Under the pieces are notes generated by a model. It searched no databases. It was not told the origin of the DNA and saw nothing but the letters and a program-made list of their open reading frames with translations. DNA of 35,560 bases. Origin: Methanomicrobia archaeon DTU008 (GTDB taxonomy: Archaea; Thermoplasmatota; Thermoplasmata; Methanomassiliicoccales; Methanomassiliicoccaceae). The translations under genes were made by a program, and so were the position numbers. The stretch lies in the NCBI GenBank assembly GCA_001512965.1, contig LFRW01000001.1:1-35560 (forward strand). The letters are read 5' to 3'. Of this stretch, positions 33,807-35,511 are shown in pieces. Positions within the stretch are counted from its first letter, which is position 1, and every line of letters starts with the position of its first letter.

Positions 33807-34478
33807 TTACTGCGCCGAGATTCCTTGAAGCTGGGATGGGCCACCAACCTTCCCCTTGGCCTTCGCGAGCTCCTTGGTCCTTTCGATCCCCTTTGCCAAC
33901 ATCGCCAACGTCCCTTCCCGGCACTCCCATCTCAGGTCGAGCTCATCCGCGAACTGCTTGGACATGTCGATGCATTCCTGGACGTTCCCTAGCCTATCAT
34001 CGATGAACAAGACCCTGGAATATCCGTCGAACATCACCCTGAGGTACCAGTCGATGTCGATGCCCACCTCCTCGTAGTTGGGCATCTTCTTCCTCATCTC
34101 CTTCTCGAACCATTCCCGGTTCATCCTGGCAAAATAAGGAGTATGGTACATGGTCCCGGCACACATCTTCCGCTCCTTTTCATATTCAGCGGGCGTCAGG
34201 AGCACACCGATGCAATCGTCCGCGTCCAACCGGACGGTGGGCACCCTCATCTCCTCGGTCACTTCCGCGAGAGAATTGCATATGCCATAGCCAAGCAGGA
34301 CGGCGTCGACCTTTCCCTCCAGGGCATTGACCTTCTCTATGACCGTCTTCTTCAACACCTCGGGATGTTCGTGAAGGCCGAACTCAAGGTACTCCTTGTG
34401 AACTATGTCGCGATCATCCTTGATCAGGTGTTCAAGGCCTCTTTCGAAGGTCTCGCATGCAATGACGCCTATCTTCAT
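33807..34478 (-). CDS. DUF1638 family protein
   Basis: A 223-residue soluble protein of the DUF1638 family, whose biochemical role is not established. MKIGVIACETFERGLEHLI is the typical N-terminus, AVLLGYGICNSL near residue 65 and VRLDADDCIGVLLTPAEYEKE near residue 82 are conserved, and the C-terminal part GYSRVLFIDDRLGN follows. Members are often found near corrinoid methyltransferase genes of methanogens, as I recall, but no such gene is complete here. Starts at 34550 and 34526 are open in frame; ATG 34478 fits the family and has GGTGATGG just upstream, while the TATA element at 34547-34557 could suit ATG 34526. It diverges from a winged-helix regulator. Confidence 0.8.
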   Translation of the reverse strand: MKIGVIACETFERGLEHLIKDDRDIVHKEYLEFGLHEHPEVLKKTVIEKVNALEGKVDAVLLGYGICNSLAEVTEEMRVPTVRLDADDCIGVLLTPAEYEKERKMCAGTMYHTPYFARMNREWFEKEMRKKMPNYEEVGIDIDWYLRVMFDGYSRVLFIDDRLGNVQECIDMSKQFADELDLRWECREGTLAMLAKGIERTKELAKAKGKVGGPSQLQGISAQ

Positions 34479-34546
34479 GCCATCACCCGGCCGCACCAGA
34501 CATTCATCCGATGCCTCTCCTAACATGTTCACAAGAGGCTGGAAAT

Positions 34547-34581
34547 ACATTAATATTACGACGTAATAACTTACTATTACG
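34547..34581. promoter_or_regulatory. divergent promoter with three TATTACG half-sites
   Basis: TATTACG at 34554-34560 and its complement CGTAATA at 34562-34568 form a 15-base dyad around one central base. A third TATTACG follows in direct order at 34575-34581, exactly 21 bases (two helix turns) from the first. The cluster overlaps the AT-rich ATTAATATT that serves as TATA for one or both divergent genes, so binding would block transcription. The neighbouring winged-helix protein is the obvious candidate to bind it. Confidence 0.5.
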
Positions 34582-34667
34582 GTGAGGCCATCTCGAACGA
34601 AGATATCGACAGGCGGTTAGAGGCCCTCTTAGATGAGGTAAGGCAGCTCAACAGCTCGGTCGTACGA

Positions 34668-35342
34668 TTGAGGCATGACGATTATCGCATGGTGTTCGGA
34701 GAACAGATAAGACGGATCCTCATCGAGAGGGTAGAGCGTCATTTTGCAAGAAGAAGTACGAACGTCATCGATGAAGACGATGAAGGGAGCAGGCTCAAGG
34801 AATCATTGGTCAGACTGGTCGACAGGGTCGTCGAATCCTATCAGCGGGATGGAACGGTGACCGCATCGCTCCTTCTCGACGAGCTGGGCGGATCGCTCGA
34901 CCGATCCTCCATGAACGTTCCCGATCGGACCTTTGTCTCCGAACTGCTCGATCAGATGCGAGACTACTTCATCACCTCGAACAAGCTCTCCTGGCAGGTA
35001 GACGACCCGACTCGCCGCAACAGCCTCTTCTCCGGGGGCAAGAGCGACCCCTCGCCTGAACTGGTCGAGAAAACTCTGAGTCCTTTGGCCAGCGCCAGGA
35101 GGATCGATCTGCTGCGGCGCCTGTCGAATGAGAGTGACAGTCTGGCCGGCCTCAGTAGGGGAACGGGGATGCAGAAAGGTCATCTCCAGTTCCATCTGAG
35201 GATCTTGTTGAAGGCGGGGCTCGTTCAATACGATAGGAAGAGCCGCCTGTATTCCATAACTTCCCAGGGGGCCGTTGCGATAGATGAGATCTCAAGGCTC
35301 ATCTGTCGGCTGGCTCCGGCAGAGCACAGTGGGGCGAAATGA
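34668..35342 (+). CDS. winged-helix transcription regulator
   Basis: At least 224 residues. The C-terminal part, about residues 135-215, is an ArsR-like winged helix: LASARRIDLLRRLSNESDSL, then GTGMQKGHLQFHLRILLKAG with the recognition helix, and GLVQYDRKSRLYSITSQG as the wing. The N-terminal half is helical and charged and may bind ligand or dimerise. The start is uncertain. TTG 34668 is the first standard start, but the frame is open from 34554 and clearly coding from about 34584 (EAISNEDIDRRLEALLDEV), with no ATG, GTG or TTG in it. The true start may be non-standard, or one base may be missing. It diverges from DUF1638 and probably controls that gene. Confidence 0.78.
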   Translation: MRHDDYRMVFGEQIRRILIERVERHFARRSTNVIDEDDEGSRLKESLVRLVDRVVESYQRDGTVTASLLLDELGGSLDRSSMNVPDRTFVSELLDQMRDYFITSNKLSWQVDDPTRRNSLFSGGKSDPSPELVEKTLSPLASARRIDLLRRLSNESDSLAGLSRGTGMQKGHLQFHLRILLKAGLVQYDRKSRLYSITSQGAVAIDEISRLICRLAPAEHSGAK

Positions 35343-35463: not shown

Positions 35464-35511
35464 AGTTATTATAATATTGTAGCGTGTACGATACTGTATA
35501 ACGTACAGTAT
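35464..35511 (+). promoter_or_regulatory. promoter and dyad operator of the right-edge gene
   Basis: AGTTATTATAATATTG (35464-35479) is a strong TATA element. About 25 bases on, over the expected transcription start, lies the perfect inverted repeat ATACTGTA (35491-35498), TAACG, TACAGTAT (35504-35511). A second, offset pair TGTACG (35485-35490) and CGTACA (35502-35507) overlaps it. The position suits a repressor. Confidence 0.55.

Follow-up and report, generated by a model that had tools for sequence, protein, structure and literature searches.

The 111-bp spacer between a DUF1638 gene and a divergently transcribed regulator gene is probably an autoregulatory operator with four half-sites, read by the adjoining ArsR-type regulator, which would repress its own gene, control the DUF1638 gene as well and serve in the field of corrinoid reactivation. 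The spacer lies in the window, by which we mean the whole 35,560-nt stretch of DNA analysed here. Our reading is built on the sequence of the half-site array, its conservation and spacing, its gene neighbourhood and its rarity elsewhere.

The divergent genes and the elements between them

The spacer is bounded by the two gene starts, that of DUF1638 at 34478 and that of the regulator at 34590. The genes and the elements between them are as follows.

33807-34478, minus strand: DUF1638 gene (PF07796), likely start MKIGVIACE at 34478, stop at 33807-33809
34542-34547, minus strand: half-site H0, GAAATA (TATTTC on the minus strand), at a conserved position in 46 aligned promoters, overlapping the BRE/TATA region
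34546-34553, no strand assigned: putative TATA-like stretch TACATTAA, placed from the conserved A/T-rich aligned columns -8 to -1
34554-34560, plus strand: half-site H1, TATTACG, exact match and promoter alignment
34562-34568, minus strand: half-site H2, TATTACG (on the plus strand GTAATA, 34563-34568), exact match and promoter alignment
34575-34581, plus strand: half-site H3, TATTACG, at the predicted transcription start of the regulator, promoter alignment
34581-34586, plus strand: ribosome-binding-like GGTGAG, abutting H3, unchanged in three congeners
34590-35342, plus strand: regulator gene, 250 aa, start ATC, with a helical N-terminal region and a C-terminal ArsR-type winged helix

The divergent partner passes the DUF1638 profile with ease (PF07796, E 5.6e-32, 111.3 bits against a cut-off of 27), and sequence comparison shows its start motif to be common to relatives. 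The regulator passes HTH_5 (PF01022) with 29 bits against a cut-off of 22 over residues 170-214, and stays below the NCBIfam HTH_metalloreg cut-off (27.9 bits against 55). The structure predicted for it, at a mean pLDDT of 78, shows a long helix at the N terminus, then further helices and the winged helix. The top-ranked Foldseek matches of this model are HlyU, CzrA, SmtB, NolR and BigR, which we take to be ArsR/SmtB proteins, with a target TM of about 0.7-0.8 and a best E of 1.9e-3, none being below 0.001. As modeled, the fold of the regulator is ArsR/SmtB-like. The window belongs to the genome of an archaeon of the order Methanomassiliicoccales, and the nearest named congeners by identity of the regulator are archaeon RumEn M1 (69%) and Methanomassiliicoccus sp. 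UBA345 (77%).

The apparent start codon of the regulator gene is ATC, which is non-standard yet conserved, in a gene that seems to regulate itself. Its reading frame holds an in-frame TAA at 34551 and no ATG, GTG or TTG before 34668. The ATC at 34590 aligns with the ATG or GTG start of relatives and is preceded by GGTGAG, and the two congeners that have the regulator gene (G002 and G003) likewise carry ATC at the start position. Judged from literature listings, we found no related report of an AUC start codon in archaea.

Downstream of the regulator, a perfect inverted repeat, ATACTGTA-TAACG-TACAGTAT, occupies 35491-35511, just before the next gene. That gene is cut by the contig end and its orthologue in locus L068 is a PadR-type regulator, making the repeat a candidate for a PadR autoregulatory operator.

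A symmetric array of four half-sites

The original prediction described three TATTACG half-sites in the spacer, two of them forming a 15-base dyad and the third lying 21 bases away. All of this is present: the dyad TATTACG-A-CGTAATA is perfect, and the first and third half-sites start exactly 21 bases apart. These are the only three copies of TATTACG in the window by exact count. Such a number is within chance, with 0.93 expected and at least three copies in 10 of 100 shuffles, but the arrangement is rare. When the spacer was shuffled 20,000 times with dinucleotides preserved, a dyad with a third half-site came up only 6 times and any 7+7 dyad 956 times.

A fourth, weaker half-site, H0, makes the array symmetric. 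The locus reads GAAATA-N6-TATTAC-N3-GTAATA-N6-TATTAC over 39 bp (34542-34580), and the general unit is GWAATA-N6-TATTAC-N3-GTAATA-N6-TATTAC, that is, two 18-bp dyads (H0/H1 and H2/H3) placed 21 bp apart. The 15-base dyad noted first is the inner pair, H1-H2, of this larger array. The idea of an operator gained support, but three half-sites proved too few, and H0 had to be added to reach the four that are needed.

Statistics of spacing and symmetry were taken over 46 family promoters. Autocorrelation is highest at lag 21 (0.579 against 0.332 in shuffles) and drops beneath the shuffled level one step to either side, at lags 20 and 22. Mirror symmetry has its maxima at +7, the centre of the whole array, and at -3.5 and +17.5, the centres of the two 18-bp dyads. 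The 46 promoters are related sequences, which inflates z-scores and p-values; the exact lag of 21 is independent of this inflation. The 21-bp period is consistent with the earlier suggestion of dimers on one face of the DNA.

The 46 promoters come from 56 collected family loci, one of which (L028) had too little upstream DNA to be scored, leaving 55. Nine more were excluded: L039, L046 and L047 have no convincing array, L029, L053, L056 and L058 score weakly, and in L055 and L060 the start is misplaced or cut. L055 does carry the array when read, and several other family loci have a weak one.

Conservation of the array across the regulator family

The family was found in 39 of 61 genomes in one search and in 44 of 147 genomes of Methanomassiliicoccales in another. 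In a search at class level it occurred in 16 of 250 genomes, all of the same order, suggesting that the family is confined to Methanomassiliicoccales as far as searched. Class I comprises the DUF1638-linked regulators (n=24, counted from search lists). In 24 of 24 class I loci a DUF1638 match adjoins the regulator divergently.

Conservation upstream of orthologous pairs, on which the original prediction was staked, is found at every class I locus (24/24), with identical spacing. Over the array, the 24 promoters form a gap-free alignment: a GTAATA-like H0, 6 bases, a TATTAC-like H1, 3 bases, a GTAATA-like H2, 6 bases, and H3, whose core is TATTAC in 23 of them and TATGAC in one. What is conserved is this TATTAC-like core with its fixed spacing; the exact 7-mer TATTACG is kept in congeners only. 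Among three congeners, 32 of 40 array columns are identical, against 31 of 63 in the remaining spacer.

Class II regulators adjoin a protein of ~136 aa, also divergent, which is PNPOx-like (29.8 bits against 28.1 in the one partner tested, the rest being judged by sequence resemblance). In most class II promoters the layout is unchanged but the half-site letters differ (TATAC, TATTC or TATTAA). The genome of the window has a paralogue on contig 27, preceded at its start by TTAATA-N6-TATTAC-N3-TTAATA-N6-TATTAT. The spacing of the array is exact across paralogues of about 25% identity. In the tree, class I and class II stand apart on long branches, with weak root support; this split implies that the layout of the array is old. 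Class II regulators carry N-terminal cysteines (C-x5-C-like, SPC-x-D-x2-CS; for example L023 and L038) that class I proteins, including the one in the window, do not have. Class II regulators are possibly redox or metal sensors.

Co-variation between half-sites was tested on distinct quadruples only (20 in class I and 19 in class II, 39 in total). In class II, H1-H2 (p 0.002) and H2-H3 (p 0.031) exceed shuffled pairs; class I shows no co-variation beyond chance because H3 is nearly invariant there. We dropped the H2-H3 signal as proof of binding, as it is modest, limited to class II and confounded by phylogeny, and kept it as support. Co-variation of this kind would weakly favour a common reader of the half-sites.

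Occurrence of the array elsewhere in the genomes

When run over the 61 genomes, the composite pattern matched exactly at 12 places. A family regulator starts within 120 bp downstream of 11 of these, and the remaining one, in genome G040, stands ahead of a flavodoxin-ramA pair. Of the 48 matches that have one mismatch, 26 are likewise at family-regulator promoters. Matches off family promoters amount to 23 of 60 in all, not above the 30 control matches (the control total was counted from tables, and the neighbour count used a list of 38 regulators). Since almost all strong matches genome-wide sit at promoters of its own family, the winged-helix regulator is the natural ligand. The array tracks the regulator family and its gene pairs, which favours the earlier proposal of a candidate operator for this winged-helix protein.

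In the own genome, the composite at up to one mismatch occurs at two family promoters only, and no regulon beyond these two array loci was seen there. Allowing up to three mismatches gave no excess (15+20 matches against 19+27 in the control), and this relaxed search was abandoned. The search for paired TATTACG sites that had been proposed returned a single perfect site in the own genome, but with up to three mismatches it yielded 21 matches against 29 in the control; a regulon cannot be read from the simple dyad alone, as its matches are fewer than those of the control.

A scan of the collected loci (0.90 Mb, overlaps included) revealed strong arrays elsewhere only in genomes G008 and G040. 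In G008 (L111), a one-mismatch array stands before an orphan DUF1638 gene that no regulator adjoins. In G040, the site is about 50 bp upstream of a flavodoxin gene, which adjoins ramA (TIGR04270, 726 bits against 500); the extra site of this genome is without H0. On contig 47 of G040 (L122, L193), the regulator is flanked by arrays, with flavodoxin-ramA on one side and DUF1638 on the other, and genes for a B12-binding corrinoid protein and a URO-D/MtaA-like methyltransferase follow about 3-5 kb beyond DUF1638. A further, weaker match concerns G008. On contig 12, at about 525650-525700 (L006 2261), an array-like sequence in which H0, H1 and H3 match and H2 does not precedes a pair of genes downstream of the regulator, one for a NifH-like fusion and one for a nitrogenase-like component.

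A model for the proposed operator and its alternatives

In our model, two dimers of the regulator probably occupy the 18-bp dyads H0/H1 and H2/H3, and the 21-bp distance would place them on the same face of the DNA. One dimer would cover the TATA/BRE region common to both promoters, and its partner the site near 34575-34577 where transcription of the regulator gene is predicted to begin. Judging from these positions, the bound dimers would obstruct TBP/TFB or RNA polymerase and thereby repress the gene of the regulator itself. The same array would control the divergent DUF1638 gene and set its level.

Alternatively, the regulator may activate DUF1638 in the manner of the Methanosarcina Msr proteins, with the array lying upstream of the DUF1638 start region. 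We hold this to be a serious possibility, if the less likely one. In its favour, the array is retained, in unchanged orientation, at the orphan DUF1638 gene of G008 and at the flavodoxin-ramA pair of G040, where no regulator start adjoins it. Methanosarcina is also known to have activators of methyltransferase operons, according to the excerpt of PMC11218639, which cites the Msr work. The array, in turn, covers the region from TATA to start of the regulator's own gene, the classical position for repression, and activation on one side is compatible with repression on the other.

The repression model depends on where the array lies relative to the core promoter. The original prediction placed the half-sites over the TATA region of the divergent genes, and the upstream dyad does overlap the A/T-rich putative TATA-like stretch, which is perhaps common to both promoters. 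On this placement the array would reach from the TATA region as far as the point where transcription of the regulator gene is predicted to start. In archaea, transcription is expected to start about 25 bp past the TATA box, and H3 lies about 25 bp downstream of the TATA-like stretch. In the family promoters, the start codon follows the first base of H3 by 7 to 33 nt, mostly 7 to 17. These coincidences would also suit a simple core promoter, in which H0/H1 are BRE/TATA and H3 is the initiator, kept by promoter function with no regulator bound. We consider this improbable. An H3-like element stands near the start codon in 43 of 56 family loci but in only 6 of 174 non-family genes, fewer than the 14 of the reversed control, and we rejected H3 as a generic initiator on this ground. 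The full matrix was applied to 211 genes for which upstream DNA was available; high scores were confined to family regulators and to the divergent DUF1638 genes that have the spacer in common with them. In addition, H2 is conserved and mirror-symmetric although we know of no core-promoter role for it. H0 may be inseparable from BRE/TATA function, and for this half-site a promoter role alone may suffice.

A different, global regulator might instead read the array and control the regulator gene family. The identity of the binding protein is deduced from a sequence pattern, which gives this proposal some room, yet we find it more improbable still. Exact matches and the regulator family go together nearly one to one, even where paralogues are only about 25% identical; the site of a global regulator should also turn up at other genes. 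Congeners G001, G004 and G005, which have DUF1638 genes and no regulator, show no composite match at their listed DUF1638 genes. Finally, a chance cluster in an A/T-rich spacer would agree with the unremarkable count of TATTACG in 35.6 kb, but it is already refuted by order-wide conservation at fixed spacing and by the rarity of the arrangement, and we give it practically no weight.

Relation to known regulators

The proposed four-half-site operator and its regulator have partial counterparts among known systems. MsvR of Methanothermobacter and Methanosarcina has an N-terminal winged helix and a separate sensor domain. As described in the excerpt of PMC3729527, MsvR autoregulates through several boxes over BRE/TATA or the start site, and in Methanothermobacter msvR is divergent from an oxidative-stress operon. 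The likeness lies in a methanogen-specific regulator and in autoregulation through boxes over BRE/TATA or the start, all of this being predicted for the regulator of the window. Unlike MsvR, whose boxes are of the type TTCGTA-N4-TACGAA, the regulator has TATTAC-like half-sites, and such boxes are absent from its own spacer, which was read in whole. Identity with MsvR was rejected, given this difference in motif and a score of 12.8 bits against the NCBIfam MsvR equivalog cut-off of 220.

Ss-LrpB and other archaeal Lrp-type regulators are autoregulated and bind cooperatively to several clustered palindromes, whose phasing of two or three helical turns keeps the dimers on one face (PMC2995911, in excerpt). 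The helical phasing is similar here, as read from the letters of the spacer, whereas the protein family is another: the regulator has no Lrp-type match in the Pfam scan. With the ArsR/SmtB repressors CzrA, SmtB, HlyU and BigR it shares, in the predicted model, the winged-helix fold of the C-terminal domain; it differs from them in its long helical N-terminal region, its single cysteine and its sub-cut-off metalloregulator score. The Msr regulators differ from it in domain order and targets. In Methanosarcina acetivorans, a methylotrophic methanogen, they control corrinoid methyltransferase genes, as the excerpt of PMC11218639 reports, and by analogy the regulator may likewise exert control over corrinoid-related genes in a methanogen.

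A likely link to corrinoid reactivation

DUF1638 and a RamA-like protein are needed for B12-dependent methionine synthesis in Phaeobacter inhibens (PMC5764234), and both DUF1638 and RamA are more abundant in Ruegeria pomeroyi on N-osmolytes (PMC12478193). Together with the gene neighbourhood in G040, this literature points to corrinoid reactivation. The physiological field of the operator is likely the reductive reactivation of corrinoid proteins in methyl-dependent methanogenesis, as suggested by the neighbourhood in one genome and by work on a distant DUF1638 protein.

A more far-reaching picture can be drawn, which we regard as speculative and rather unlikely as a whole. In it, the family would command corrinoid reactivation (DUF1638, flavodoxin and RamA), operator and promoter would be merged, with the upstream dyad serving also as one TATA box for both divergent genes, the pair of dimers would set the direction and level of transcription, and the entire family would be corrinoid or flavin redox sensors. 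The redox-sensor part derives from the N-terminal cysteines of class II and its flavin-binding, PNPOx-like neighbours.

Judged by titles and the openings of abstracts, the literature on Methanomassiliicoccales holds no such regulator or operator that we could find. For this methanogen order, the array is an unusually clean predicted operator, exact in its spacing even between paralogues that have only ~25% identity. Genetics links DUF1638 with corrinoid reactivation of the RamA-like kind. A regulator of its own, with a well-defined predicted operator, would provide a handle on when DUF1638 is needed.
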